Positions 3,905 through 18,613 of a stretch of 64,000 nt of DNA are shown here, piece by piece. Source of the stretch: Microtetraspora fusca. GTDB taxonomy: Bacteria > Actinomycetota > Actinomycetes > Streptosporangiales > Streptosporangiaceae. A program made the translations under genes and the position numbers. Position 1 is the first letter of the stretch. The number at the start of each line of letters is the position of its first letter. The DNA lies in contig NZ_BBYK01000069.1 in the NCBI RefSeq assembly GCF_001570365.1, positions 1 to 64,000 on the forward strand, given 5' to 3'. The notes beneath the pieces are model-generated. The model did no database searches. It was given only the letters and a program-made list of their open reading frames with translations, and had not been told where the DNA came from.

Positions 3905-5923
3905 TCAGCGGGCCGCGCCGGTCTCGACGGGATCGAGGAGGAGCTCCCGGCGTAGCCGGGCCAGGTACGTTCCGCTTCCGGTGGACGAGCGGCTGTAGCG
4001 GTCGACGTCGTGGAAGGCGCGCCAGCCAGGCAGCCGGTCTCGGACAAGGCGAAGGAGGCCGACTACCGGCACGGCGTCGGCGCCCTCGGCGGGCCACAGG
4101 CTTGCGGGCACGGAGGTGAGTATGGCGTCCATCTGGGCGTAGCCGTCCTCGACCCGGCGGGTCACCTCGTCGATCGCCTCCTGTCTGGTGCAGCCGGTCG
4201 CGTGGCGGAGCACCCTGACCAGGTTGTAGGGAGCGCCGGCGGCCTCGTCGTGCTCCAGGGTCCGCAGGTCGTTGTCCGCGAGTACGGTGGCCGTGCCGAG
4301 GTCCAGCAACCGCCGGAAGAGCGGATGGTCGCGTACCGACGGCTCGAGCTCCCTGCCGTACACGATCTCGAAGCCGCCCAGGAAGAGGGGCACACCGGCA
4401 CTGCCCAGGCGCAGCGGGACCTGGTCCCGCAGGCCGGGGACGAACCCGCTGAGCCGGTGGCATGCCTCGCGCTCGGCTGCCTCCAGCCATTCCAAGAGGT
4501 GGTCGAGGGCGCGCGTCCGCCACGATGGCGGCTGGGTCAGGCGGATCCGCTCCCAGGTCTGGGCCAGGGCCGTAGCGACCGCTCCACCGGTCGGCGGCGT
4601 GTCGTCGAGCCCGCGGATGAGGAGCGCGAGCCGGCGTCGCAGCCGGACGACCTCCCCGGTGTCGGCGAGCCCCGGCTCGTCGAAGAGGTCGTCGAGCACG
4701 AAGCAGACCAGCAGCCACCGGGCCAGCGTCTCGAGTTGCTCGGGGTCCGCGCCCGGCCACATCAGCGCGGTGGTCGAGGCCATGCCGCGCCATCGCGGGT
4801 GGCGGACCTCCTCCGGCGTGGCGGCGAGTCCGGTGTCCAGCAACCAGGCGTCCAACCGCTCCTGCACCCGGGCCCGGACGTCGGCCTGAGCGGGAGCGGG
4901 AGAGGGCGGGGGCGCGGGCGGGGGCGCAGTGACGAGAGCCGGCCCGGCGTGCCCGGCGGAGCTCATGATCGACCGGACGTAGTCGGCCAGCCCCTCCCGT
5001 GACCGCGGATCGCCGAGGCCGTCGAGTTGCCGGAGAGCCGTCTCCATGTGGGCGTCGGCGACCGTCCGCGCCTCGTCCACGGCTCCGCAGGAAAGGACCA
5101 GTCGCCGCGCGCGCTCGGCGTCGGCCGCCGTGACGCCGCGGCGCAGCAGCCGGGCGAGCGCGGGTTCGCGGGCCAGGGCCTTGATCACGGGGAGCGTGTA
5201 AACGCCTTCTGGGATGTCGGAGTTGGCCGGCTTCCCGAGTTCCCCGCTCGTCGCGGTCAGGTCGAGGATGTCGTCGCGCACCTGGTACGCCATGCCGATA
5301 TGCCAGCCGAACCGTGCCAGGGCCTCCTCCGCCTCGGGACCCCGCCCCGCCTGCATCGCGCCCAGCCTGCAGGCCACGGACAGCAACTCGGCCGTCTTGG
5401 CTCCGGTCACCTCCAGGTAGGCATCCTCGGTGCGGGAGAGCAGGAAGCGGTCGGCGGTCTCGGCGATCATCCCCGAGCAGGTCCGTTGGACGGTCTCGGC
5501 GACCGCCAGGGCCTCACGCCGGCCCAGCTCGACGAGGATCCGGGTGCCGCTGACGCACAGGAGGTCACCCGCCAGGACCGCCAGGCGCTCGCCCCACACG
5601 CTGTTGGCGCTCGGTCTGCCCCTGCGCTGCCGTGCGTCGTCGATGACGTCATCGTGGTAGAGCGACGCCGTGTGCAGCAGCTCGACGGCCGCCGCGGCCT
5701 TGACGGCGCGGACGTCGGCGGCCCGCTCCGGGGCGGCGAGCAGGTAGTACGACAGCAGCGCCAGGGTGGGGCGGATCAGGCGGCGGTGCCCCCCGGGCGG
5801 CTCCCTGGTCAGCGCCGCCAGATCGGACCGGCCCGGTATGCCTGCCCGGCCGAGGATCTCCCGTACCCGTTCCAGGTCGGACTCCAATGCGGGGAAGGCA
5901 CGGGATGCGCTTGCGGATGTCAT
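3905..5923 (-). CDS. Bifunctional polyprenyl synthase-class I terpene cyclase fusion
   Basis: 672-residue chimera. Residues 1-325 are a trans-isoprenyl diphosphate synthase: GGHRRLIRP at 44-52, first Asp-rich motif DDVID at 91-95 followed by RQRR, second Asp-rich motif DDILD at 217-221. A Pro/Ala linker spans about 332-346. Residues 350-672 are a class I terpene cyclase: DDLFDE at 411-416, NSE-type metal motif NDLRTLEHD at 551-559, and a C-terminal RY pair at 642-643. All metal-binding motifs are intact, so one chain should elongate prenyl diphosphates and cyclise the product. Prenyl length and skeleton cannot be read from sequence. The order is prenyltransferase then cyclase, opposite to the fungal chimeras. 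The start is backed by AGGAGGATCC. It is the last gene of the operon, 18 bases after the ABC permease. Confidence 0.9.
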   Translation of the reverse strand: MTSASASRAFPALESDLERVREILGRAGIPGRSDLAALTREPPGGHRRLIRPTLALLSYYLLAAPERAADVRAVKAAAAVELLHTASLYHDDVIDDARQRRGRPSANSVWGERLAVLAGDLLCVSGTRILVELGRREALAVAETVQRTCSGMIAETADRFLLSRTEDAYLEVTGAKTAELLSVACRLGAMQAGRGPEAEEALARFGWHIGMAYQVRDDILDLTATSGELGKPANSDIPEGVYTLPVIKALAREPALARLLRRGVTAADAERARRLVLSCGAVDEARTVADAHMETALRQLDGLGDPRSREGLADYVRSIMSSAGHAGPALVTAPPPAPPPSPAPAQADVRARVQERLDAWLLDTGLAATPEEVRHPRWRGMASTTALMWPGADPEQLETLARWLLVCFVLDDLFDEPGLADTGEVVRLRRRLALLIRGLDDTPPTGGAVATALAQTWERIRLTQPPSWRTRALDHLLEWLEAAEREACHRLSGFVPGLRDQVPLRLGSAGVPLFLGGFEIVYGRELEPSVRDHPLFRRLLDLGTATVLADNDLRTLEHDEAAGAPYNLVRVLRHATGCTRQEAIDEVTRRVEDGYAQMDAILTSVPASLWPAEGADAVPVVGLLRLVRDRLPGWRAFHDVDRYSRSSTGSGTYLARLRRELLLDPVETGAAR

Positions 5924-5941: not shown

Positions 5942-6730
5942 TCACGGGCGCGCCGTCACCGGCGCGCCTGCCGGCTGGTGCGCGCCCCTGCGGCTGACGA
6001 AGGCGGAGACGCCGAGGGCCGCCGTGCCCAGTGCCCAGCACGCGGCGGGGGCGACGGCATGCCAGGGCACCGTGTCCAGGGCGATGGCCGCGACGGCCGA
6101 CTGCATCGGTCCGAAGTCGGGCAGGTAGCGCACCAGGACACTGCCCGCGGCGGTGGTGGCGAGCGGGCTCTGCAGGGCCAGGTCGGCCGAGCAGATCACG
6201 ATGACGAGGAACATGCCGGCCAGGTCGCTGGTCAGCACGGCGGCGAGCACGATGCCGATCCCGCCGTAGATCAGCGCCCCGCCCGCGAGGGCCGCGGCGA
6301 GCAGCAGGGGCTGCGCGGGCCGGTGGGTCAGGCAGATCAAGCCGGTCGCGTAGAGCGCGACGGAGACCGCGACCACCGCCAAGGCGGTGAGTTTGGCCGC
6401 GATCAGACACAGCTGCGGGAAACCGGACCGCACCAGCCGGCGGTCGAAGGATGCCGAGCGCATCGTGGTCACGAACATCATGAATCCGGTGATCAGCGCC
6501 AGGATCTGCAGCGCCCCGCCGATCTGGTTCAGGACGTTGGCCGGTACGGTGACGGACCGGCCGGCGGCGCGGACGTGGAACGGGAGAGGGATCTCCAGGG
6601 ACAGGACGTAGATGAGGATGGTCCAGACCGGGATGAAGAGCACGACGATCACCAGCGCAAGGCGGTTGCGCAGGTGCTCCACGAACGTCATCCGCAACGC
6701 GGTGGCGTAGCAGTCCCATTGGCGTTTCAC
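5942..6730 (-). CDS. ABC-2 type transporter permease
   Basis: 262-residue integral membrane protein with about six hydrophobic segments (for example LALVIVVLFIPVWTILIYVL near the N-terminus and paired segments around residues 110-170), matching an ABC-2 export permease. The GTG start overlaps the stop of the ATPase gene (GTGA), indicating translational coupling. The terpene synthase fusion begins 18 bases downstream. By position it forms an exporter with the ATPase and probably moves the terpenoid or protects the producer. That substrate assignment is inference from the operon only. Confidence 0.8.
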   Translation of the reverse strand: MKRQWDCYATALRMTFVEHLRNRLALVIVVLFIPVWTILIYVLSLEIPLPFHVRAAGRSVTVPANVLNQIGGALQILALITGFMMFVTTMRSASFDRRLVRSGFPQLCLIAAKLTALAVVAVSVALYATGLICLTHRPAQPLLLAAALAGGALIYGGIGIVLAAVLTSDLAGMFLVIVICSADLALQSPLATTAAGSVLVRYLPDFGPMQSAVAAIALDTVPWHAVAPAACWALGTAALGVSAFVSRRGAHQPAGAPVTARP

Positions 6731-7380
6731 GGCGCACCCACCCTGTCCCCGCTCTCGGCGGCGTCGCGTTCCTGCTCCCGCAGCACGCCGTCCTCCAGCC
6801 GGTGGAGTGTGTCGAGGCGGCCCGCGTCGTAGGCGAGGTGCGAGACCACCAGCACGGAGCGGCCACGCGCGCGCAGCTCCTCGGCCAGGTCCCAGAACCG
6901 CACGTAGGTCTCCCAGTCGAAGCCCTGGTAGGGCTCGTCGAGCAGGAGCACATCCGGGTCGTGCATCAGGGCCAGGACGAGGTTCAGCTTCTGGCGGGTG
7001 CCGCCGCTCAGCGTGCCGGGGCGGGCTCGGCGGCGGGCGGGGAACCGCAGCACCTCCATCAGCTCCTCGGCCCTGCGCAGGCTTTCCAGCCCGTAGGCGA
7101 CCTGGAAGAACCGCAGGTGCTGCTCGACCGTGAACGCGTCGTGCAGCACCGTCTCCTGCGGGCAGTGGCCGATGCGCCCGCCGCAGTGCACCGACCCGCC
7201 GTCCGGCCGCAGGTCGCCCGCGAGGACGCGCAGCAGTGTGGTCTTGCCCGCGCCGTTCTCCCCGACGATCCCCGCCACCCGGCCCGGCGGCAGAGCGAGA
7301 TCCACCCCGCGCAGGACCGGGACCTGTCGGTAGCCCTTCCGCACGTTCCGCACCCGCAGTACGGGCTCATCTGACGGCAT
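6727..7380 (-). CDS. ABC transporter ATP-binding protein
   Basis: 217-residue nucleotide-binding subunit: Walker A GENGAGKTT, signature LSGGTRQKLNL, Walker B DVLLLDEPYQGFD and the switch histidine in VVSHLAYD. Length and the single domain fit ATPases that pair with ABC-2 permeases. The ATG (MPSDEPVLRVRN) was chosen because an AGGGAAG ribosome site lies just upstream; the open frame continuing to 7752 encodes only low-complexity Arg/Ser-rich sequence. First gene of the ATPase-permease-terpene synthase operon. It acts at the inner face of the membrane. Confidence 0.88.
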   Translation of the reverse strand: MPSDEPVLRVRNVRKGYRQVPVLRGVDLALPPGRVAGIVGENGAGKTTLLRVLAGDLRPDGGSVHCGGRIGHCPQETVLHDAFTVEQHLRFFQVAYGLESLRRAEELMEVLRFPARRRARPGTLSGGTRQKLNLVLALMHDPDVLLLDEPYQGFDWETYVRFWDLAEELRARGRSVLVVSHLAYDAGRLDTLHRLEDGVLREQERDAAESGDRVGAP

Positions 7381-7996: not shown

Positions 7997-8402
7997 GCGT
8001 CGCTGAACGCTTGTTTTCGACTTCGACCTGCTCGAGCAACTGGTTCACGTCGTCCCGGATGAGGAGCTTCAGCTTGCCGGTGCCGACCTTGGTGAACCGT
8101 GACCACCTTCTTGCCGCAGTCGACGCCGCCGCCCGCGTCGACCTCGGCGGCGGCCCGGGCCTCGCCGACCGCCGGTGATTTGATCGCCGTCGCGAACCGG
8201 GTTTCGGACAGGACCTCCACGACTTCCTCGCCGTCCGGCTCCAGCGGTCCGGAAGGTCGGCCAAGTGGCGACGACCAGGGCCGTTACGGCATGTCAGGGC
8301 ATGCCAGGGCACGCTCCACGACGAATGATGGACGCCGAGGGGGTGGCATTTCCGACATTTGCACCATGACGGCCACTAATGCCGCTTCTAGAGTCATGGC
8401 CA
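7997..8402. other. Decayed stretch without a recognisable gene
   Basis: Short minus-strand open pieces with plausible protein character (SETRFATAIKSPAVGEAR; LKLLIRDDVNQLLEQVEVEN) lie in different frames and look like a frameshifted remnant. I do not recognise the family. The right part presumably holds the promoter of the first LVIVD gene, but no clear -35/-10 pair was found. Confidence 0.4.
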
Positions 8403-8424
8403 CGTGCGACTTTTCGGTCGCATG
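8403..8424 (+). promoter_or_regulatory. Leader inverted repeat before the first LVIVD gene
   Basis: TGCGAC and GTCGCA form a perfect 6-bp inverted repeat around TTTTCG, with one extra C-G pair outside a G-T wobble. It lies about 40 bases upstream of the GTG start. It could be an operator or a leader hairpin; nothing in the sequence separates these. Confidence 0.35.
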
Positions 8425-8463
8425 GTTCCAACCTGCACTGAGGGCCCCTTAAGGGAGGGTGTA

Positions 8464-9942
8464 GTGAAAACGAAATCCCTCATGGCGGGTGCGGCCGCTC
8501 TTGCTACGGCTGTGTTATTACAGCTGTCTGGAGTTGGCGCAGCATTCGCCGACACGCCGTCCGACTCGAGCCCGTCGGACAACTCCGCCCATGGCGGTCC
8601 GATCCTCGATGACGTGCACAACGCCCCGACGACCGCTGTCGCAGGCAACGTCACGTTCATCGACAACGTCAGAGGGGTCAGCGGCTACTCGGCGCTGAAC
8701 TTCATCCACTACGACAAGTACGGCTACGACTTCATGTTCGCCAACGGCACCGGCGGGCTCGCCGTCTGGTCGCTGAAGGACCCCGAGCACCCGGCCCTGA
8801 TCTCGAAGATCACGGCAGCCGAGCTGCGCCTGCCGGGGGACACCCAGGACAGGTTCTGGGAAGGCGAGAACATTACCGTCGACCCGAAGCGCAAGCTGGT
8901 CTTCCTCACCCGGGACCCGCGCGGCTTCGGCGGCACCGTCAAAACCGGTCAGTCCGGCGTCTACATCGTCGACGTCAAGAATCCGTGGAAGCCGGAGACG
9001 GTCATCTTCCACCCGGTCCCGGCCGGACACACGGCCACCTGCATCAACGACTGCAAGTACCTGTGGTCGGTCGGTCCGGCCAACACGGGCACGCCAGGCC
9101 AGGACCCCTCCTGGAACGGCGTGCCGGTGCGGGTGACCGACATCCACGACATCAAGCACCCGTACACCTTCGACCGGGCGGTCGATCTCGGCCGGCACGA
9201 CGGGGTCACGGACTACGTGCACAGCGTCGACGTCGACAAGAACGGCATCGCCTGGGCCTCCGGTGAGGGCGGCGTACGCGGCTACTGGACCGAGGGCAAC
9301 CACTACGACCCGGTGCAGAAGCGCAACCGCGTCGCGACGGCGTACGACCCGGTGCCGTACGCGGGCGGGACCGTCGTTGCCACCAACCCGGCGGGCACCG
9401 ACTTCTTCGACTACTTCGACCACAATGCCTACCACAACACCGAGAAGCTCGGCTCCTTCGACAAGGGCGAGCTGCTCTACATCACCAACGAGAACATCAC
9501 GACCTGCTCACAGGCGGGCGAGTTCAAGATCGCCTCGCTGAAGGGCAGCTACGACGGTGAGGGCTGGCGTTCCACGCCGGAGAAGCCGTTCCGGCTGGAA
9601 CTGATCAGCCACTGGTCGCCGTGGGGCAAGGAGGGGTCGGCCACCAGCGGTAGCTGCTCCGCGCACTGGTTCACGGTGAACGGCAACATCCTGGCGCAGG
9701 CGTGGTACGGGCAGGGCACCCGCTTCATCGACGTGTCGGACCCGAGGAACCCGACCCAGGTCGGCTACTTCCGCGTGCCGTCGGGGCAGGGCGTGACCGG
9801 CGGCTCGGCGTCGGCCGCCTACTGGCACGACGGGCTGGTCTACGTCGCGGACTACAACCGGGGCGTCGACGTCCTGCGGTTCGACGGGAAGCTGGCCGGA
9901 GAGCCGGACAAGAAGATCTGTTGGAACTCGTGCGACAAGTAA
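8464..9942 (+). CDS. Secreted LVIVD repeat protein (copy 1)
   Basis: 492 residues with a Sec signal peptide (MKTKSLMAGAAALATAVLLQ, cleavage near AFA-D) and no membrane anchor, so exported. The body carries LVIVD-type beta-propeller repeats: GGLAVWSLKDPEHP, GVYIVDVKNPWKPE, TRFIDVSDPRNPTQ, GVDVLRFDG. Paired cysteines (CINDC, the CSAHWF motif and a terminal CWNSC) suggest disulphides or metal ligands. The GTG start is fixed by AGGGAGGGTGTA immediately before it and by the signal peptide; the frame is open 60 bases further up. LVIVD proteins are surface or extracellular and mostly of unknown function. It heads the first cassette and is followed by a strong hairpin and a binding-protein gene. A longer homologue lies at 13797. 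Confidence 0.85.
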   Translation: MKTKSLMAGAAALATAVLLQLSGVGAAFADTPSDSSPSDNSAHGGPILDDVHNAPTTAVAGNVTFIDNVRGVSGYSALNFIHYDKYGYDFMFANGTGGLAVWSLKDPEHPALISKITAAELRLPGDTQDRFWEGENITVDPKRKLVFLTRDPRGFGGTVKTGQSGVYIVDVKNPWKPETVIFHPVPAGHTATCINDCKYLWSVGPANTGTPGQDPSWNGVPVRVTDIHDIKHPYTFDRAVDLGRHDGVTDYVHSVDVDKNGIAWASGEGGVRGYWTEGNHYDPVQKRNRVATAYDPVPYAGGTVVATNPAGTDFFDYFDHNAYHNTEKLGSFDKGELLYITNENITTCSQAGEFKIASLKGSYDGEGWRSTPEKPFRLELISHWSPWGKEGSATSGSCSAHWFTVNGNILAQAWYGQGTRFIDVSDPRNPTQVGYFRVPSGQGVTGGSASAAYWHDGLVYVADYNRGVDVLRFDGKLAGEPDKKICWNSCDK

Positions 9943-9951
9943 CCGTTTGAG

Positions 9952-10001
9952 CGAAAGCACCGGCTCGAGCGTGGCGACCGCTGCGCTCGAACCGGCTTTC
10001 G
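9952..10001 (+). terminator. Long hairpin between LVIVD copy 1 and the binding-protein gene
   Basis: Outer arms CGAAAGC and GCTTTCG pair perfectly and enclose CCGGCTCGAGCG against CGCTCGAACCGG, giving a near-continuous stem of about 19 bp with a GC-rich loop. It starts 10 bases after the LVIVD stop. With no T-tract it could act as a partial terminator or an mRNA-stabilising barrier inside the operon. Confidence 0.6.
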
Positions 10002-10026
10002 ATGGTGACGGGCGTGGAGGTAGAGG

Positions 10027-11202
10027 GTGCGACGCAGAGGTGCCGTGCGCGCGGTCGCGCTGGGCGCGGCCGCCCTGGTGGTGAGCGGTCTGCTCGATGC
10101 GTGCTCTGCCTCGGATGAGGGCGGCGGCGCCCCGAGGCCGCAGGGCGAGATGACATTCGGGGTACTGGCCCCACTCTCGGGCGACATGGCCGAGCGTGGG
10201 CAGGACCTCGTCGACGGGGCGCAGCTGGCTGCCGCTGAGATCAACGAACAGGGCGGGGTTCTGGGGCGGCAGGTGACGCTGGCCGTCGAGGACGGCGGCT
10301 GCGCGTCGGCGACCGGCGAGCAGGCGGCGACGGGGCTGGCCGCCAAGAGCGTCGTCGGGGTGGTCGGCGGGCTGTGCGAGGACGCGGCGGTGACGGCGGC
10401 GAAAACCGTGGCCGCGGATGGCACGCCGTTCCTGGTCTCCTCCGCCCGCGCCGACCGGCTGGTCGGGGCCGGGCTGCCGTCGGTGTTCCCGATGGAGGGC
10501 ACGGTCTACCAGGAGGCGCTGGCCGCGGTGCACTGGATGGGCTACCGGAGCCCGCAGCGGGTGGCGGTGCTCGGTGACGGCTCGCCGGCCTCGCAGCGGC
10601 TGTCCGGCCTGGTGACCGACCGGGTCAAGGCCGACGGCCTGAAGGTGAGCAGGCGAAGCGCCGAAGCGAAGGGTCCTGACCTCGCGGAGCTCGCCCGCAC
10701 CGTCACCGGTTTCAAGGCGGACTTCGTCTACTGGACGGGGGCGGCGGAACCGGGTGGACGGCTCGTGGGCGCACTACGTCACGTCGGCTACACCGGCTAT
10801 TTCATGGCCTCCTCGGAGTCGGACAGCCCCGAGTTCCTGCAGGCGGCGGGAGGAGCGGCCGAGGACGCGTTCCTCACCACGTCCGCGGGCCCGCGACTTC
10901 TCCCGGCAGCGGCGGACTGGGCCGCGCGCTTCAAGGACCGCTACCGGCGGGACCCGGGCCGTGACGCGATGCAGGCCTACGACGCGCTCCGCGCGCTGGC
11001 GCAGGCGGTGCGCCAGGCGGGGGACACGGCTCCCTCCAAGATCGTCGACAACCTCCCGCGGCTCGCGGACTTCACCACCTTCACCGGGGCACTCCGCTTC
11101 GCCGCCGATCACTCGCTGGCGTATGACAACTACGTCATCGCCCAGGTCAGGGGCGGCACGTTCACCCTGGCCAGCAAGCTGCGTACGGACCCGGTCGGAT
11201 GA
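10027..11202 (+). CDS. Liv-type ABC substrate-binding lipoprotein (copy 1)
   Basis: 391 residues. The N-terminal lipobox SGLLDAC (Cys 26) marks a membrane-anchored lipoprotein. The mature part is a type I periplasmic binding fold: FGVLAPLSGDMAERGQDLVDGAQLA, GVVGGLCEDAAV, FLVSSARADRL, GRDAMQAYDALRALAQA. The GTG start has GGAGG seven bases upstream. No permease or ATPase of a branched-chain amino acid transporter is nearby, so it is an orphan receptor for an unknown ligand. The CopC-CopD gene overlaps its stop codon, so the two are translationally coupled. A close paralogue is at 15811. Confidence 0.85.
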   Translation: MRRRGAVRAVALGAAALVVSGLLDACSASDEGGGAPRPQGEMTFGVLAPLSGDMAERGQDLVDGAQLAAAEINEQGGVLGRQVTLAVEDGGCASATGEQAATGLAAKSVVGVVGGLCEDAAVTAAKTVAADGTPFLVSSARADRLVGAGLPSVFPMEGTVYQEALAAVHWMGYRSPQRVAVLGDGSPASQRLSGLVTDRVKADGLKVSRRSAEAKGPDLAELARTVTGFKADFVYWTGAAEPGGRLVGALRHVGYTGYFMASSESDSPEFLQAAGGAAEDAFLTTSAGPRLLPAAADWAARFKDRYRRDPGRDAMQAYDALRALAQAVRQAGDTAPSKIVDNLPRLADFTTFTGALRFAADHSLAYDNYVIAQVRGGTFTLASKLRTDPVG

Positions 11203-12992
11203 TGCGCGGCATGCACCCCGCGGGACATCGTCGGGTCCGGCTGATCGCGCGGCTGGCGATGGTCGCGTTCCTCGTGGCCGGCGGCCTGGTCGCGGACCTC
11301 GTCTCCGTCGTGGCCACGCATCCGGCGCACGCGCATGCCTACCTGCTGGAGACCTCGCCTGTCGATGGCGAGGTGCTGGCCTCGCCCCCGGCCGAGGCCC
11401 GGCTCCGCTTCAACGAGGCGGTGAGCTTCAACCAGCGGTCGATCCAGTTGCTCGACGTGACCGCGAAGAAGCTGGCGATCGGTACCCCGGGGCACGTGGA
11501 CGGGAAGGCCAACACGGCGAGGGTGAGCCTGCCCACGGATCTGGCCGAGGGAACCTACGTCCTGGCCTGGCGAGTCACGTCCGCTGACTCGCACGTGGTG
11601 TCGGGTGCGTTCAGCTTCAGCATCGGCCACCCGAGCGCGCTGGCCGCACCGGTGGAGCAGGATGCCGATCCCGCCGTCCCCGTCGTCGACGCGGTCGGCC
11701 GCGGCCTTGCCTTTCTCGGTGTGGCCCTCGCCCTCGGTGGTGCGCTGTTCGTGGCCGTGCTCTGGCCCGCGGGCCGCGATGACCGCCGCGCCCGGCGCAT
11801 CGTGTGGTCCGGCTTCGCCGCGCTGACGGCCGGCACCGTGGTGGTCCTGCTCGTACAGGGGCCGTACGCCGCCGGCACGTCGCTGACAGGGGTGTTCGAC
11901 CCTGAACTGCTCAGCACGACGCTGTCCACGCGGTTGGGCCAGGCGCTGCTGGTGCGGCTGGTGATCGTGCTCGCCCTCGGTGTGGCCTTCGGGGTCGCCG
12001 TGCGCCCCGCCCCGCCCCCTGCCGGCGCCGGGGCGGCCGGCCTTACCCGCCGGATCGTCCTGCCCGCGGTCGCCGCGGCCGGCGCCGTCGCCCTGACGTT
12101 GACCTGGACGCTGGCGGATCACGCACAGACCGGCGTGCAGACCTGGCTGGCCGTGCCGGCGACGAGCCTGCACCTGCTCGCCATGGCCCTGTGGCTGGGC
12201 GGCCTGATCCCGCTCGCGGCCGGCGTGCTCATCCCGGCGGGGAGACGGGAGCCCACCCGCGCCATCTCCCTGGAGCCCGCGCTCCCGAGGTTCTCCCAGC
12301 TCGCGCAGATCTGCTTCGCCGTGATCGCGGTGACCGGCGTATACCTGTCCTGGCGGCAGGTGGGGACGTGGGGTGCGCTCGGCGGGACCGACTTCGGGCG
12401 GCTGCTTCTCGGCAAGCTCGCCGCCGTCCTCGCCGTGGTGGGTCTTGCCGCCGGAGCGCGGCGCTTCGTGCGGCGGCACAGCCGCGAACCTCTCGGCCTC
12501 GACACCGCGCCTTCCGCCGCGGTGCGCCGGCTGCGCCGCTCGGTCGTGACTGAGGTCGTGCTCGGGGTCGCCGTCGTGTCGATCACGGCCGTCCTGGTCG
12601 ACACCGCCCCGGCCCGCACCAGCTACGCGCCGCCGGCGCACACCAAGGTCCCTGTTCCCGCCGCCGCGGACGGGGCCGACCCGGCCACCGGGCCGCGGGG
12701 CGGCTCCGTCGAGGTGAAGATCGAGCCGGCGAGGCCGGGAAGCAACGTGGCCGACATCTACATCACCGGGCGGGATGGCTCGCTGGTCGCGGTGCCCGAG
12801 GTCTCCGGCGAGCTCGAGTCGCGCGACCGCAGTGTCCCGGCGTTCCCCGTCAAGATCTCCGCAGCCGAACCAGGCCACTACGTGGCGAACTCGATGTCCA
12901 TCCCCTACCCGGGGGCGTGGGTGCTGCGACTGGACATCCGAGTCTCCGACTTCGATGAGACACCCGTGCGTGTCCCGTTCACAGCACGCTGA
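11199..12992 (+). CDS. Copper resistance CopC-CopD fusion protein
   Basis: 597 residues. After a signal-anchor (LIARLAMVAFLVAGGLVADL) comes a CopC beta-barrel starting at HAHAYLLETSPVDGEVL, which places a histidine at the mature N-terminus, with the second Cu(II) ligand pair in SADSHVVSG. Residues about 165-490 are a CopD membrane domain with roughly eight segments containing LHLLAMALWLGG and GVYLSWRQVG. A periplasmic tail (about 500-597) resembles an Ig-like domain. CopC/CopD proteins bind copper outside the membrane and move it across. The ATG overlaps the stop of the binding-protein gene. It is the gene in this region most directly tied to copper. Confidence 0.88.
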   Translation: MMRGMHPAGHRRVRLIARLAMVAFLVAGGLVADLVSVVATHPAHAHAYLLETSPVDGEVLASPPAEARLRFNEAVSFNQRSIQLLDVTAKKLAIGTPGHVDGKANTARVSLPTDLAEGTYVLAWRVTSADSHVVSGAFSFSIGHPSALAAPVEQDADPAVPVVDAVGRGLAFLGVALALGGALFVAVLWPAGRDDRRARRIVWSGFAALTAGTVVVLLVQGPYAAGTSLTGVFDPELLSTTLSTRLGQALLVRLVIVLALGVAFGVAVRPAPPPAGAGAAGLTRRIVLPAVAAAGAVALTLTWTLADHAQTGVQTWLAVPATSLHLLAMALWLGGLIPLAAGVLIPAGRREPTRAISLEPALPRFSQLAQICFAVIAVTGVYLSWRQVGTWGALGGTDFGRLLLGKLAAVLAVVGLAAGARRFVRRHSREPLGLDTAPSAAVRRLRRSVVTEVVLGVAVVSITAVLVDTAPARTSYAPPAHTKVPVPAAADGADPATGPRGGSVEVKIEPARPGSNVADIYITGRDGSLVAVPEVSGELESRDRSVPAFPVKISAAEPGHYVANSMSIPYPGAWVLRLDIRVSDFDETPVRVPFTAR

Positions 12993-13008
12993 AAGGCTGG
13001 TGGCACAC

Positions 13009-13761
13009 ATGCGAGGCGTTGACCGGAAGGCATCCCGGCGCCGGGTGAGCGGGGCCGCCGCCGGCATGCTCGCCCTCGGCGTCCTGACGGGCTGCTCCAG
13101 CGGTGCTCCGCAGCCGTTGACCAAGCCGCCCTACACCCTGGACTCCATCCGGTACGGCCTCGTCAGCCCCGGAGACCTGGGCGAAGGCGCGACCGAGTTC
13201 AAGGACAACGGCCACGCCTCCCACGTCGTCTACACGCCCCCGAACAGCATCCCGACCTGTCCGTACGTCCAGCGCTCCGAGGATGTCGAGGTCGATGTGC
13301 GGCCGGCGGTCGAGCCGGTGGGTGGGATGCCGACCGGGCGGTTCATCGTCGGCCCGCAACTCGCGGGTACGTCGTCGCTTCCGGTCGTCACACAGGGCGC
13401 GGCGGTCTTCAAGAGCTCCTCGCTCGCCGACAACACGATGGACACCGTCGTGGCCGAGTCGGCCAAGTGTCCGGAGACGTTCGGCGTGCTCGGCGGACCG
13501 CCGTCCGTCGTGGGCGATTACAAGGTCGGCAGCCGGCAGATCGAGATGGACGGCTGGAAGGGGTTCGCCCAGCATCTCGTGCACACCTCGCCCCCGGAGG
13601 TGAACCCGGACACCTACGACGACCTGGTCACCGTCGTGGTGCACAAGGCCAACGCCATCATCTACGTCGGCTATGCGCAGATCAAGGCGGTCGGCCAGCG
13701 GGCCGACTCCGACGAGAAGGTCAAGGCGTTGATGAAGACGACGCTGGCCCGCCTCGGCTAG
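13009..13761 (+). CDS. Conserved lipoprotein, cassette copy 1
   Basis: 250 residues with a lipobox (LGVLTGCSSG). I do not recognise a named family. Marks shared with its paralogue at 17064: LxxPxYTxDxxxxxY, an NSIPTCPYVQRS segment, VEPVGGxPxGxF, VTQxAxVF, WKGF/YxQxLxHT, and a final region ending in an ADSxxKxxxxxxxxLxRLG helix. A GTG three codons upstream is an alternative start; ATG is preferred although its GAAAGG site is 12 bases away. It follows CopC-CopD by 16 bases and sits at the membrane surface with the other exported products. Function unknown. Confidence 0.75.
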   Translation: MRGVDRKASRRRVSGAAAGMLALGVLTGCSSGAPQPLTKPPYTLDSIRYGLVSPGDLGEGATEFKDNGHASHVVYTPPNSIPTCPYVQRSEDVEVDVRPAVEPVGGMPTGRFIVGPQLAGTSSLPVVTQGAAVFKSSSLADNTMDTVVAESAKCPETFGVLGGPPSVVGDYKVGSRQIEMDGWKGFAQHLVHTSPPEVNPDTYDDLVTVVVHKANAIIYVGYAQIKAVGQRADSDEKVKALMKTTLARLG

Positions 13762-13796
13762 CGCCGCGTCCACATCTATTGGAGGTTTGAGGAACG

Positions 13797-15671
13797 GTGA
13801 GATTCTTACCTGTTGGAGGAGCTCTGAAGGGCAGAGCCCTCCTGGCCGGCACGGCCGCGCTCGTCACGGCGGTCGTGCTGCAGACGGCGAGCCTCGGCCC
13901 GGCGTACGCGGATCCGTCCGGTCCGGTCAACCCCGGCACGGTCGGGCACGCCAGGGCCGAGGCGACCAGCCTGCAGAACCGGGCGGACGCGGCCGCGAAG
14001 GACGCCGCCAGGGCAGCCGCTCGTCTGGACGAGGCCAAGGCCAAGGCTGAGGAGGAGGCGCAGAAGGCCGCCGACGCCGCCGCCAAGGCTGAGGAGTCGG
14101 GCAAGGTCTCCGACAAGAACAAGGCGGAGTCTGCCGCCGCCAAGGCCGCGGAAGCATCCGCCAAGGCGGCGCAGGCGCAGCTGGAGTACAACGAGAAGGC
14201 CGCCGCGTCGGCGGCGGCGGAAGCGGCCGCGGCGGAAGCGGCCAACAACGCCGAGCGTGAGGCCGCGTCGCTGGCCGGCGTCACCGACGGCACCCGCACC
14301 GAGGGGACGCAGACCCTCCCGGACACCGGGGTGTTCCCCGACAACGCGACGCACAGCGACAACGTCGAGGTCGTCGGCCACGTGCGCGGGGTGCTGTCCG
14401 GCAACTCGAGCTGCCCCGCCTTCAAGCCGTCGAAGTGCCCCGCGTTCTCGTCGCTGAACTTCGTGCACTACGAGAAGCTCGGCTACGACGTCATGGTCGC
14501 CAACGGCACCGGCGGCCTGGCCATCTGGTCGCTGAAGGACCCCGAGCACCCGACGTACATCTCTGAGGTCACCGTCAACCAGCTGAAGCAGCCGGGCGAG
14601 ACCATGACCCAGTTCTGGGAGGGCGAGAACCTCACGGTCGACAGCAGGCGCAAGCTCGTCTTCATGACCCGCGACTCGGGTCAGAAGGGCCTGTTCGTCA
14701 TCGACATCAAGGACCCGTGGCACCCGGTGCTGCTGGGCTTCCACCCGGTCCCGCTCGGCCACACCGCGACCTGCATCAACGACTGCCGTTTCATCTGGTC
14801 GGTGGGGTCGGGCGTGCGCGGCGTGAGCTCCCCCGTCTACGTGACCGACGTACGTGACGTCAACCACCCGTTCACCTACAGCCAGGCCGTCGTCTCCGAC
14901 GTCCGGCGCACCGGTGCGACGAGCGGCTCCACGCACAGCGTCGACGTCGACTTCGACGGCGTCGTCTGGGTCTCGGGCAGCGGCGGCGTACGCGGCTACT
15001 GGACGGACGGGAAGCACTTCGACCCGGCCACGCAGACCGAGCGCTACGCGACGGCCTATGACCCGATCCCGTACGCGGGCGGGAGCGTCGGCGGCTCGGA
15101 GGGCTCCTTCCTGCACAACGCCTACCGCTTCCCGAACACCCTGGGAGATCGCCCCAAGGGTGACGTGCTCCTCATCACCAACGAGAACAACAACCAGAAC
15201 TGTGCGAAGGCCGGCGTGTTCATCCTGGCGTCGCTCGAGGGGACACACGACGCCGACGGGATCACCTCCACTCCGGAGAACCCGGTCAAGATGACACGGC
15301 TCGCCACGTACAGCCCCGGGGGCAAGCCCGGCCACTACGTCGACCCGACGGGTAAGGCCGGCGACTGCTCCGCGCACTGGTTCACGGTGAACGGCAACAT
15401 CGTCGTCGGCGGCTACTACGAGCAGGGCGTCCGGTTCCTGGACATCTCCGACCCGAGGAACCCGCAGCAGGTCGGCTGGTTCCGGGTGCCGGACCGAGCC
15501 GCCGGCCCCGACGGCCCGGCGATCATCGGGAGCAACGCCTCCTCGGCCTACTGGCACAACGGGTACGTCTACGTCCCCGACTACGGCCGTGGCGTCGACA
15601 TCCTGAAGTTCACCGGCGACATCCCCGGCAAGCAGGAGAAGAAGGTCTGCTGGAACTCCTGCGAGAAGTAG
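13797..15671 (+). CDS. Secreted LVIVD repeat protein with Ala-rich coiled coil (copy 2)
   Basis: 624 residues. Signal peptide (ALLAGTAALVTAVVLQ, cleavage near AYA-D), then residues about 45-160 are an Ala/Lys/Glu-rich helix (EAKAKAEEEAQKAADAAAKA) predicted to be a long coiled coil. The LVIVD propeller follows, parallel to copy 1: GGLAIWSLKDPEHP, GLFVIDIKDPWHP, CINDC, CSAHWF, VRFLDISDPRNPQQ, and the terminal KKVCWNSCEK. The GTG start is preceded by GGAGG and GAGGAA. The coiled coil is absent from copy 1 and may span cell wall or oligomerise the propeller. A perfect 18-bp hairpin follows the stop. Confidence 0.85.
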   Translation: MRFLPVGGALKGRALLAGTAALVTAVVLQTASLGPAYADPSGPVNPGTVGHARAEATSLQNRADAAAKDAARAAARLDEAKAKAEEEAQKAADAAAKAEESGKVSDKNKAESAAAKAAEASAKAAQAQLEYNEKAAASAAAEAAAAEAANNAEREAASLAGVTDGTRTEGTQTLPDTGVFPDNATHSDNVEVVGHVRGVLSGNSSCPAFKPSKCPAFSSLNFVHYEKLGYDVMVANGTGGLAIWSLKDPEHPTYISEVTVNQLKQPGETMTQFWEGENLTVDSRRKLVFMTRDSGQKGLFVIDIKDPWHPVLLGFHPVPLGHTATCINDCRFIWSVGSGVRGVSSPVYVTDVRDVNHPFTYSQAVVSDVRRTGATSGSTHSVDVDFDGVVWVSGSGGVRGYWTDGKHFDPATQTERYATAYDPIPYAGGSVGGSEGSFLHNAYRFPNTLGDRPKGDVLLITNENNNQNCAKAGVFILASLEGTHDADGITSTPENPVKMTRLATYSPGGKPGHYVDPTGKAGDCSAHWFTVNGNIVVGGYYEQGVRFLDISDPRNPQQVGWFRVPDRAAGPDGPAIIGSNASSAYWHNGYVYVPDYGRGVDILKFTGDIPGKQEKKVCWNSCEK

Positions 15672-15692
15672 GCCTCCGGCAGATACCTCCGC

Positions 15693-15737
15693 CCCGCTCG
15701 CGGGCTCGCGTCACCACGGCGCGAGCCCGCGAGCGGG
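15693..15737 (+). terminator. Perfect 18-bp hairpin between LVIVD copy 2 and binding protein 2
   Basis: Arms CCCGCTCGCGGGCTCGCG and CGCGAGCCCGCGAGCGGG pair without mismatch around a 9-nt loop, 21 bases after the LVIVD stop. It occupies the same place as the hairpin in the first cassette. There is no T-tract, so it is either an intrinsic terminator of the GC-rich type or an mRNA processing/stability element. Confidence 0.65.
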
Positions 15738-15810
15738 CACCCGGGGTTCCCTTCCCGTTCCCCGGGCCCCGCCCCCCTTCAACACGTACCGGAGCCGAGA
15801 GAAGCACCCC

Positions 15811-17019
15811 ATGCAGCTTCCGACGAACCTCGACCGCCGTGGCCGGACCCGCCACATCCGCTGGCTCGTACCGTTGGCCCTCACCGTCCTCACGCTCCCG
15901 GCCGCAGGCGGGTGCAGCTCAGGCGGCGCCACGCCGGCCGCCCCCAGGGGGGACATCGCCTTCGGTGTGATCGCCCCGCTGTCCGGACCGGAAAGCGCGC
16001 GCGGGCAGGACCTGGTGGATGGGGCGCAGATGGCCGCGAACGACCTCAACGTCCGGGGCGGGGTCATCGGGCTGCACGTCTCCCTGGTCACCGTCGACGA
16101 CGAGTGCCTCGACGACAGCGGCAAGGAGGCCGCGAAGCGGCTCCACCTCACCGAGAGCGTCGCCGGCGCGATCGGAGGCGTCTGCGACGACGCCGCCGAG
16201 GCCGCCGCGCGGGTCCTCGGCGGCAACGGAGTGCCGTTCCTCATCACCTCCGCCAACTCGCCCACGTCGGTCAGCGCGGAGGACACTCCTACGGCTTATC
16301 TCACCAACGGCACGCCGTACCAGGAAGCGCTGGCGACAGTGCACTGGATGGCCTACAACACCGCCCAGCGGCTCGCGGTGATCGCTGATGACACCCCGCA
16401 GTCCGCATACCTGGTCAAACAGGTGATCTCGGTGGCCTCGCCCGTCCCCAAGGTGGTCAGCAAGCAGACCCTGACGGCCGGGCGGCAGGACATCGCCGCA
16501 GCCGCGGCCACCGCGCTGGCCGCCGACCCCGACGTCGTGTACTGGGCCGGCTCCGCCCAGGAATCCGGCCGGCTCGCCGCAGCGCTACGGAAGGCCGGGT
16601 ACAAGGGCATGTACATCGCCTCCGCGCAGTCGGAGAGCCCCGATTTCCTGTCAGCCGCCGGCACTGACGGCGCCGAGGGCGCATACGTGATCGCCACGGC
16701 CAGCCCGCAGAACCTCCCCGCCGCCGAGGCGTGGACCAAGCGTTTCACCAAGGCCTTCGGCCGCGCACCGGGGCGGGACGCGCTGCAGGCCTATGACGCG
16801 CTGCGCGCCCTGGGGCAGGCCGTGACGCAGACGGGAAAGGTGGACCGCGCACTGAACAGCGAGCAGTTGACCAAGCTCGAAGACACCTTCACCACGTTCA
16901 TGGGTGCGCTCAGGTTCGCTCCCGACCACACGGTCAAATACGACAACCATCTCGTGCTGACCGTCAAAAGCGGTGCCTTCACCCTCGCCAACATGCTGCG
17001 TCCGGACAACGACATCTGA
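15811..17019 (+). CDS. Liv-type ABC substrate-binding lipoprotein (copy 2)
   Basis: 402 residues, paralogue of the protein at 10027. Lipobox PAAGGC gives Cys 35 as the lipid site. Conserved positions match copy 1: FGVIAPLSGPESARGQDLVDGAQMAAND, AGAIGGVCDDAAE, PFLITSANS, YIASAQSESPDFL, GRDALQAYDALRALGQAV. There is again no cognate permease or ATPase nearby. It stands between the LVIVD copy 2 hairpin and the second small lipoprotein. The ligand is unknown; the context suggests a metal complex or small chelator, which is inference. Confidence 0.84.
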   Translation: MQLPTNLDRRGRTRHIRWLVPLALTVLTLPAAGGCSSGGATPAAPRGDIAFGVIAPLSGPESARGQDLVDGAQMAANDLNVRGGVIGLHVSLVTVDDECLDDSGKEAAKRLHLTESVAGAIGGVCDDAAEAAARVLGGNGVPFLITSANSPTSVSAEDTPTAYLTNGTPYQEALATVHWMAYNTAQRLAVIADDTPQSAYLVKQVISVASPVPKVVSKQTLTAGRQDIAAAAATALAADPDVVYWAGSAQESGRLAAALRKAGYKGMYIASAQSESPDFLSAAGTDGAEGAYVIATASPQNLPAAEAWTKRFTKAFGRAPGRDALQAYDALRALGQAVTQTGKVDRALNSEQLTKLEDTFTTFMGALRFAPDHTVKYDNHLVLTVKSGAFTLANMLRPDNDI

Positions 17020-17063
17020 CGGCCGTGGTCGATCGCAGCCTCCCCCGACGAAGTGAGCCATCC

Positions 17064-17792
17064 GTGACCTTGCGCCCCCGTGTCGCCCTCGCGCTGGCCG
17101 CCGTCTGCGCCGCCCTCACCGGCTGTTCCGGCACCGCGGACGCCACAGCGACCAAGCCGCACTACACGGCCGACGAAGTCAAGGCCGCGTACTACACCGC
17201 CAAGGACGCCGGCGAAGGCGCGCGCGACTACTGGTATGACCGGAACTTCCACTCGCATACCAACTACGTGCCGCCGAGCGCCATACAGACCTGCCCGTAC
17301 GTCCAGCGTTCGGACGCGGCCAATGCGCCGTCCAACGTGGTGCAGCCGGTCGGCGGCGAGCCCGTGGGGCAGTTCGCCGTGGAGCCCGCTCGATCGACCG
17401 ACTCGCGCGTCCCGTACGTGACCCAGAACGCCCTTGTCTTCGGCTCGGGCGCCATCGCCGATGGCGCGATGGACGAGGTCGGCTCCGGGCTGGCCAAGTG
17501 CCCCGGGTCGTATGCGGTGAACGGGGGGCCGCCGGTCATCCTCGGCACCTACAGCGTGACAAGCCGCCCGCTCGAGGTGTTCGGGTGGAAGGGGTACGTG
17601 CAGCAACTCGCCCACACATTCCCCCCGGGCATGGACGACGTCTACTACGAGGACATCGCCATCGTGGTGCTCCATCGGGCGAATCTCATCCTCTATCTCG
17701 ACCTCACCCAGACGAAGATCGTCGGAGACCGCGCCGACTCCGCGGACAAGGCCAGGGGCGCCGTGGAGAAGGTGCTGCGAAGACTGGGCTGA
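17064..17792 (+). CDS. Conserved lipoprotein, cassette copy 2
   Basis: 242 residues from a GTG preceded by GAAGTGAG; an ATG 13 codons upstream lacks a ribosome site. Lipobox CAALTGCSG. It is a clear paralogue of the lipoprotein at 13009: KPHYTADEVKAAYY, IQTCPYVQRS, VQPVGGEPVGQF, YVTQNALVF, FGWKGYVQQLAHT, and the closing VGDRADSADKARGAVEKVLRRLG. No recognised domain. Two cysteines besides the lipid Cys (TCPYV and LAKCPGS) are kept in both copies and probably form a disulphide. A hairpin follows. Confidence 0.74.
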   Translation: MTLRPRVALALAAVCAALTGCSGTADATATKPHYTADEVKAAYYTAKDAGEGARDYWYDRNFHSHTNYVPPSAIQTCPYVQRSDAANAPSNVVQPVGGEPVGQFAVEPARSTDSRVPYVTQNALVFGSGAIADGAMDEVGSGLAKCPGSYAVNGGPPVILGTYSVTSRPLEVFGWKGYVQQLAHTFPPGMDDVYYEDIAIVVLHRANLILYLDLTQTKIVGDRADSADKARGAVEKVLRRLG

Positions 17793-17800
17793 ACCGAGAC

Positions 17801-17825
17801 CGGCGGGCCGGACCGCAGCCCGCCG
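17801..17825 (+). terminator. Hairpin after lipoprotein copy 2
   Basis: CGGCGGGC and GCCCGCCG form a perfect 8-bp stem with a 9-nt loop, followed ten bases later by TTTATT. It is the best intrinsic terminator candidate of the cassette region, lying 9 bases after the stop. Confidence 0.55.
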
Positions 17826-17893
17826 CACGCGAGCTTTATTCGACCAAACAGCACAGTCGCGATTCCTGATCGCCAGCACGAAGGAGAATGCAT

Positions 17894-18613
17894 ATGCTGC
17901 GCCGCGCGATACGTGGCCTCGTAACCGTGGGGATGGCGGCCTGCCTGATCGGCATCATGCCGGCGGTGGCGTTCGCACACGTGAAAGTGACCGCGGACTC
18001 GGCCACCCAGGGTGGCTACGCCGCCTTGACGTTCCGCGTCCCCAACGAGCGCGACAACGCGAGCACGACCAAGATCGAGGTTCAGCTGCCGACCGACACC
18101 CCGCTCGCCTCGGTCTCGGTGAAGCCACACCCGGGTTGGTCGTACGAGATCACCAAGACCAAGCTGGCCGCGCCGATCGAGGCGCACGGCGCGCAGATCA
18201 GCGAGGTCGCCGGCCAGATCACCTGGACTGCGACGGATGCGAAGTCAGGCGTCCAGCCGGGTGAGTACGAGGAGTTCTCCGTGAGTGCCGGACCGCTGCC
18301 CAATACCGACCGGATGGTGTTCAAGACGCTCCAGCACTACAGCGACGGCGAGATCGTGCGCTGGATCCAGGATCCGTCCTCCGACGGCGACGAGCCGGAG
18401 CGGCCCGCGCCGGTACTCCGGCTCGTGCCCAAGGGCGACGCGGCGTCGTCCCCGTCGACCGGAACCGACCGGGTGTCTCTGACCGCGGACAGCACGCCCG
18501 CGACCGGATCGGGTGTGGGGAGTGCGTGGGCGGTCGGGCTGTCCGCGGCCGCGCTGGTGATCTCCCTCGCGTGCGCTGCGACGATGGTCGTGCGGACCCG
18601 CCGGACGCGATAG
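17894..18613 (+). CDS. YcnI family copper-associated membrane protein (DUF1775)
   Basis: 239 residues: signal peptide ending AFA, then HVKVTADSATQGGYAALTFRVPNER. The histidine at the mature N-terminus is the known Cu(II) ligand of YcnI proteins. The DUF1775 domain (about 30-175) ends near QHYSDGEIVRWIQDPSSDGDEPERPAPVL, and a C-terminal membrane helix (AALVISLACAATMVV) anchors it facing outside. The second ATG is preferred because AAGGAGA lies seven bases before it; the first ATG is too close. YcnI genes usually neighbour CopC/CopD, in line with the fusion gene 5 kb upstream. It closes the putative copper region. Confidence 0.85.
   Translation: MLRRAIRGLVTVGMAACLIGIMPAVAFAHVKVTADSATQGGYAALTFRVPNERDNASTTKIEVQLPTDTPLASVSVKPHPGWSYEITKTKLAAPIEAHGAQISEVAGQITWTATDAKSGVQPGEYEEFSVSAGPLPNTDRMVFKTLQHYSDGEIVRWIQDPSSDGDEPERPAPVLRLVPKGDAASSPSTGTDRVSLTADSTPATGSGVGSAWAVGLSAAALVISLACAATMVVRTRRTR

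Follow-up and report, generated by a model that had tools for sequence, protein, structure and literature searches.

A candidate copper module of YcnI/YcnJ type with an LVIVD beta-propeller in Microtetraspora fusca and related actinobacteria

Layout and recurrence of the module

We analysed a window of 64,000 nucleotides (nt) from Microtetraspora fusca (contig NZ_BBYK01000069.1, positions 1 to 64,000 of the forward strand), in which eight plus-strand genes at 8464–18613 surround a CopC–CopD fusion and end in YcnI. All eight genes of the initial annotation were present among the open reading frames of the window. LVIVD-1 (8464–9942), a predicted exported beta-propeller, is followed by SBP-1 (10027–11202; alternative start possibly 10045), a Liv-type solute-binding lipoprotein (SBP) that matches Peripla_BP_6 (4.6e-51), by a YcnJ-like CopC–CopD fusion (CopCD; 11199–12992; CopC 7.5e-21 and CopD 8.4e-23 in a single open reading frame), the start of which overlaps the SBP-1 stop, and by LP-1 (13009–13761), a small lipoprotein (LP) with an LTGC lipobox. 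The remaining genes are LVIVD-2 (13797–15671), a paralogue of LVIVD-1; SBP-2, again a Liv-type solute-binding lipoprotein (15811–17019; Peripla_BP_6 4.1e-47); LP-2, again a small lipoprotein (17025–17792; alternative start possibly 17064); and the final module gene, YcnI (17888–18613; DUF1775 3.1e-50), with a C-terminal membrane anchor. We assigned signal peptides, lipoboxes and membrane anchors by visual inspection. The LVIVD-1 start at 8464 was chosen from conservation, and a start at 8404 was discarded because indels in relatives disrupt the frame upstream of 8464. In Pfam and NCBIfam searches, the matches above cut-off were those of both SBPs, of CopC and CopD in their one open reading frame and of YcnI; the LVIVD-like proteins and small lipoproteins gave no family match above cut-off.

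The initial annotation had described two parallel cassettes of LVIVD, SBP and lipoprotein genes, with CopC–CopD inside the first and YcnI after the second. The duplication extends to all three members, which are paralogous (LVIVD-1 and LVIVD-2, 50% identity over 460 aligned positions; SBP-1 and SBP-2, 46% over 391; LP-1 and LP-2, 45% over 225), and family matches and coordinates place CopCD and YcnI as described. However, the two copies are not strictly parallel, as CopCD separates SBP-1 from LP-1 in copy 1 and is missing from copy 2. An Ala-, Lys- and Glu-rich N-terminal extension of about 130 residues distinguishes LVIVD-2 from LVIVD-1; it is weakly TolA-like (NCBIfam E 0.032, far under cut-off).

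A scan of genome contigs with LVIVD-1 yielded 23 loci, in which genes were called and then clustered. The arrangement LVIVD-(SBP)-CopCD-LP-YcnI was complete in 21 of the 23, from seven genera (Microtetraspora, Planotetraspora, Microbispora, Nonomuraea, Streptosporangium, Actinomadura and Micromonospora); the other two are a locus with a contig edge just after LVIVD (L045) and a 44% relative with no module (L055). Because the core order repeats in 21/23 loci, a chance arrangement is ruled out. A lack of any recurring neighbourhood had been named at the outset as a ground for refutation; the neighbourhood does recur, and the proposal survived that test in part. Two parallel cassettes were discarded as the basic unit, since 17 of the 21 complete named loci carry a single cassette. 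The basic unit is one module, LVIVD-(SBP)-CopCD-LP-YcnI. Inside the 21 complete modules we found no further gene call of at least 60 amino acids, except an SBP remnant of 89 residues in L047.

Among 149 relatives of the window genome, LVIVD matches (E <= 1e-20) occurred in 14 and LP matches (E <= 0.001) in 8, the latter at 12 places. Eleven of these 12 adjoin other module genes, in 7 of the 149 genomes and 4 genera; the twelfth (G090, E 5.8e-4) was taken as spurious. Since the records of six of the seven LP-positive genomes also supplied named loci, this sample and the contig scan are not independent. LP was absent from 396 genomes drawn from the phylum, except the window's own, and the module is therefore rare outside these groups. 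The literature searched, outside which most subscription journals fell, described neither the module nor a link between LVIVD and copper.

Copper-protein residues and the LVIVD propeller

Residue conservation was assessed in 22 sequences, comprising the 21 loci and the window; L064, which has the same sequence as L047, was dropped from the residue counts and from the LVIVD and LP trees. CopC H46, D130 and H132, CopD H308 and H325, and YcnI H31, E54 and W159 were invariant (22/22 each). The YcnJ CopC structure 9c14 begins at the position aligned with CopC H46, and we take the CopC Asp-x-His to complete, with this N-terminal His, a Cu(II) brace. In the CopCD C-terminal region, the only match was to FixH (E 0.046, 14.1 of 23 bits, below cut-off), possibly indicating a YtkA/FixH-like part. 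The three window YcnI residues align with YcnI His27, Glu50 and Trp137 (PDB 3esm and 7me6 in the alignment), which form the YcnI copper site (PMC8424229). When copper is limiting, YcnJ depends on its CopC His24 and its CopD His295 (PMC13344008). Cu(II) is exchanged between YcnI and YcnJ (PMC12154828), and YcnJ and YcnI support copper-limited growth of Bacillus subtilis (PMC13344008, PMC12154828).

Against the Pfam LVIVD family (PF08309), LVIVD-1 gave no match and LVIVD-2 scored 14.1 bits compared with a cut-off of 20.2. The family label is weaker than the initial annotation suggested: homologues pass the cut-off (L072, 36.4 bits; L074, 26.9 bits), but neither window copy reaches it. A structure model of LVIVD-1 from 26 sequences (predicted local distance difference test, pLDDT, 75; predicted template-modelling score, pTM, 0.81) had as its top PDB match in Foldseek 5hrm, the phosphotriesterase of Sphingobium sp. 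TCM1 (Sb-PTE; 2.4e-12, template-modelling (TM) score 0.53–0.55); the first other protein was a WD40-type propeller (3.7e-8). A sequence profile also matched 5hrm (4.8e-8), via a local repeat. A 2016 structure paper on Sb-PTE reportedly describes, per its title, a seven-bladed propeller that houses a binuclear metal centre. The LVIVD proteins had initially been called essentially uncharacterised; they are little studied, but they resemble a binuclear-metal phosphotriesterase.

We take the binuclear-metal ligands of Sb-PTE to be E201, H258, H389, E407 and H475; these positions read E, H, H, E and H in the gene located on a Sphingobium plasmid. The ligand alignment held 16 of 38 LVIVD rows, with N-terminal parts cut, and was run in the MAFFT modes linsi, ginsi and einsi, with and without bridging homologues. 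With bridging, the residues that fell on these ligands in all three modes were E133 or E135, H189, H320, E343 and H401 of LVIVD-1, and the corresponding residues of LVIVD-2 were E275 or E277, H322, H440, E463 and H527; a further His is conserved as H253 and H380, respectively. Six Glu or His residues of Sb-PTE were kept in at least 14 of the 16 LVIVD rows, and five of the six are the presumed ligands. In the bridged alignments, four ligands were identical in 16/16 rows in all modes and E201 in 14, 14 and 16 of 16. Identity in every row therefore applied to 4/5 ligands (linsi, ginsi) or 5/5 (einsi), compared with 1/28 of the other His and Glu residues (H317; Fisher p 5.9e-4 for 4/5 and 2.5e-5 for 5/5). 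In the unbridged alignments, E201 was aligned in 14–16, H258 in 16 and H475 in 16 of the 16 rows. From the model and these alignments, the LVIVD protein is probably an exported beta-propeller enzyme with a putative Sb-PTE-like binuclear metal site.

A second LVIVD branch has one copy in the window genome (L072), divergent from a DUF305 gene (2.5e-45). Across 41 genomes, this branch occurred at 29 places in 18 genomes, with DUF305 within 4 kilobases (kb) at 27/29 and within 1 kb at 23. The count took in 78 of 91 DUF305 places; the 13 weakest were omitted, and none of these shares a contig with either unpaired LVIVD place. Among the 29 places, two (G003:C28) are probably fragments of a single gene. 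The pair was also present in Nonomuraea gerenzanensis (L079), and a Paraburkholderia LVIVD homologue (L074) has DUF305 directly after it. We found no module genes beside the pairs of L072 and L079 in the short stretches read. Among the distant loci L055–L063, the only copper-type neighbour was a DUF305 gene about 3 kb away in L056. One place (G011:C17:13392-18072) has three consecutive LVIVD matches, two of them with one internal stop, adjoining one DUF305 gene. Synechocystis CopM, a protein with two DUF305 domains, binds Cu(I) and functions in copper resistance (PMC4335983).

For the small lipoproteins, we suspect a PknH_C/PsbP-like fold. LP-1 and LP-2 gave sub-cut-off matches to PknH_C (E 0.02–0.05, 13.9–15.1 of 27 bits), and a low-confidence model of LP-2 (pLDDT 54) gave PsbP/Apa matches at E 1e-3 to 1e-2 with query TM scores of 0.23–0.26; its best E-value was to 2qpv (3.2e-4, TM 0.19).

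Optional parts, RNA hairpins and flanks

SBP had been taken initially as a core part, and was set aside as such because it is intact in only 10/21 loci (three Microtetraspora and seven Micromonospora) and not intact in 11/21. Pieces of SBP remain between LVIVD and CopCD in L036, L047 and L048 (tblastn); short pieces were also read by eye in L037, L038, L049, L053 and L054, very short in the last two, and the three Microbispora loci had no convincing SBP remnant by eye. The 89-residue open reading frame of L047 (11518–11787) retains the SBP lipobox start and C-terminal end, with the middle gone. The nearest solved chains to SBP-1 are amino-acid binding proteins. At the positions that we take to hold the amino-acid ligand residues of LivJ (S79, T102 and E226), SBP-1, the one copy aligned to 2liv, has E118, R141 and S263. 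None of the 21 loci has a permease or ATPase inside the module. Liv-type amino-acid import was discarded on these two grounds, the missing permease and the missing presumed LivJ ligand residues of SBP-1. The window does contain a divergent ABC ATPase gene (6727–7353) and an adjoining open reading frame without a Pfam match, the clusters of which are common only to L033. In L039 and L052, the region about 3 kb past the module carries a separate Liv-type SBP (31–32% identical) and a LivH-like permease, this SBP standing behind ornithine cyclodeaminase-like and aconitase X-like genes (names by eye).

The second cassette occurs in the window and in 4 of the 21 named loci (L033, L034, L051 and L043), that is, in three other Microtetraspora and one Micromonospora. 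Because LVIVD-2 and LP-2 each fall into a long-branched clade of their own (100/100 in both trees), we regard this cassette as a diverged insert and not as a recent copy.

The leader and promoter region (8281–8463, plus strand) was delimited from an alignment of 23 upstream regions, its left edge being the Planotetraspora break point. By eye, it contains sigma-70-like boxes, ATGACG (8366–8371) and TAGAGT (8389–8394) with a spacing of 17 nt, which were not seen in L047, and a candidate ribosome-binding site at 8451–8459. No known copper operator was recognised in it by eye, and no systematic operator search was made. Directly 3' of LVIVD-1 lies a conserved RNA hairpin (9953–10000, plus strand; z −3.2 in the window). 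In an alignment of 20 sequences (19 loci and the window; L038, L045, L047 and L064 left out), 97.1% of cells were paired and 8/17 pairs had changes on both sides; on all five measures used, the alignment exceeded every one of 500 shuffles, and pairing fell to 48–53% when the partner was slid by one column. Six single sequences past LVIVD-1 folded at z −3.1 to −6.1, and a control stretch after YcnI gave z −0.1. Two further hairpins are predicted after LVIVD-2 (15691–15768, plus strand; z −6.7 for 15669–15810); by eye, the first stem sequence is retained in L033, L034 and L051 but not in L043. The conserved hairpin after LVIVD-1 may set propeller expression above that of the downstream genes.

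Upstream of LVIVD-1, five Planotetraspora loci share 84–98% identity over about 180 nt; farther out, we found no blastn match at E 1e-20, except a 420-nt stretch common to L037 and L038. Past the YcnI stop, their divergence sets in within about 35 nt. Between genera or Planotetraspora species, upstream homology stops about 180–300 nt before the LVIVD start, and flank sequences of one Planotetraspora species occur in congeners on contigs that do not hold the module. Comparing the flanking genes of relatives by clustering, we found shared ones in L046 and L050 (Microbispora), in several Micromonospora loci and in the window and L033; L033 and L051 share 777 nt downstream. The LP tree joins Microtetraspora to Micromonospora (98/96), contrary to family lines, and the LVIVD tree (32 of 38 rows; L064, L058 and L060–L063 left out) has the same group at 84/94. 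This grouping supports transfer between families and suggests that the module moved horizontally. Insertion at a tRNA was discarded, as a tRNA was present in only 1 of the 21 loci (L051) in the stretches read. No clean empty site was found for L036, the upstream flank of which matched three of four congeners over only 128–166 of 1261 bases. Its downstream flank matches one congener at 97% over bases 27–1261, the remaining downstream matches being short and diverged, and none of the four flank matches is on a contig that carries the module in the congener concerned.

Elsewhere in the window, an open reading frame at 1182–3710 (minus strand) encodes a GmrSD-type restriction endonuclease with both domains, the C terminus of which matches a 6-O-methylguanine methyltransferase DNA-binding domain (1.2e-6). 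Another, at 3905–5923 (minus strand), combines polyprenyl synthetase and terpene synthase domains and lies near the ABC ATPase gene.

Interpretation and comparison with known systems

The best reading of the module is one of the YcnI/YcnJ copper-uptake kind, with an added LVIVD propeller, LP and SBP. We give a probability of roughly 0.55 to a mobile extracytoplasmic Cu(II) module of this type with a secreted metallo-propeller that is probably an enzyme. As proposed for YcnI/YcnJ, YcnI and the CopC domain would capture Cu(II) at the outer face and exchange it there, and CopD would then pass it on. The LVIVD propeller would either require copper handled by the module or free copper from an organic ligand, the hairpin 3' of its gene possibly raising its expression over that of the downstream genes; LP would be a constant lipoprotein partner and SBP an optional component for binding an organic ligand. 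The surface copper module of the initial annotation is supported by the recurring neighbourhood (21/23), the CopC and YcnI metal residues (22/22) and the LVIVD–DUF305 pairing (27/29). A shared copper function is indicated because the core genes stay linked as most flanks change and because LVIVD also pairs with DUF305. A wider proposal, which we hold only tentatively and consider rather doubtful, is that LVIVD proteins constitute an enzyme class not recognised so far, of exported, copper-dependent and dinuclear beta-propellers supplied by dedicated surface copper machinery, the mobile CopCD-LP-YcnI set in one branch and a DUF305 partner in another.

Several observations weigh against a copper module with a metallo-propeller. 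In the unbridged alignments, H389 aligns in 0–7/16 and E407 in 0/16 LVIVD rows; among the bridging homologues, the Paraburkholderia and Variovorax rows lack H389, and the two rows from the DUF305 branch lack E201, their E407 being unaligned in ginsi. The Sb-PTE template is not known as a copper enzyme, and the metal of the propeller may therefore be Zn, Mn or Fe. In the stretches read of nine distant LVIVD loci (L055–L063), CopCD, LP and YcnI are all missing. The window genome has three other CopC genes and one other DUF1775 gene elsewhere, and the module would therefore be an additional copper set. No YcnK-like repressor or other copper regulator lies in the 21 complete modules; however, a repressor is not a general requirement, because a YcnK-like or helix-turn-helix gene is reported near only about 20% of a CopCD-linked set (PMC8424229).

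It is possible, if unlikely, that copper is merely a neighbour: LVIVD would be a Zn-, Mn- or Fe-dependent hydrolase of phosphoesters or similar compounds that scavenges phosphate or an organic compound, CopCD and YcnI would supply copper elsewhere, for example to a respiratory oxidase, and the linkage would have other reasons. The hydrolase with a binuclear centre as closest solved relative, the organic-ligand family of SBP and the nine distant loci speak for this explanation; the retention of four core genes together though most flanks change and the pairing of another LVIVD branch with DUF305 speak against it. That pairing could also point to copper resistance instead of acquisition, with surface proteins binding and retaining copper outside the cell, as CopM works in resistance (PMC4335983). 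We consider this quite improbable, as the module has no efflux ATPase, multicopper oxidase or regulator and B. subtilis YcnJ and YcnI aid growth under copper limitation (PMC13344008, PMC12154828). The frequent loss of SBP and the patchy second cassette would fit chance co-inheritance of an operon lacking joint function; yet four genes in the same order at 21/23 loci with mostly different flanks, and an LP that adjoins other module genes at 11/11 credible places, make this very hard to credit. On the preferred reading of a YcnI/YcnJ-type copper module, a module with its own copper parts and a candidate metalloenzyme would name a specific copper client, and the LVIVD family gains a predicted metal site as well as a second copper-protein partner, distinct from the first.

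Among known systems, the Sphingobium sp. TCM1 phosphotriesterase, or haloalkylphosphorus hydrolase (5hrm, 5ioj), is the best fold match, and its presumed ligand positions meet conserved His and Glu residues of LVIVD in the bridged alignments; the two differ in that identity in the fold alignment is 13–15%, and no CopCD or YcnI was found in the 6.2-kb plasmid stretch examined around its gene. The LVIVD–DUF305 pair of actinobacteria, also present in Paraburkholderia (L074), resembles the module in that LVIVD adjoins a member of a copper-binding family, but it belongs to another LVIVD branch, of which the two aligned sequences lack the first Glu ligand. Leu/Ile/Val-type ABC binding proteins are of the same family as the module SBPs, with two conserved Cys; unlike those ABC systems, the module has no permease or ATPase, and the presumed LivJ ligands are not kept in SBP-1. 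With PknH_C and PsbP-like lipoproteins, LP shares a weak Pfam PknH_C match and weak PsbP/Apa fold matches, although the score is under cut-off and the model of low confidence. B. subtilis ycnKJI has, like the module, a CopC–CopD fusion and a DUF1775 protein, and the two systems share the CopC and YcnI residues that bind Cu(II); by comparison, the module dispenses with a YcnK-like repressor and adds an LVIVD propeller, LP and SBP.

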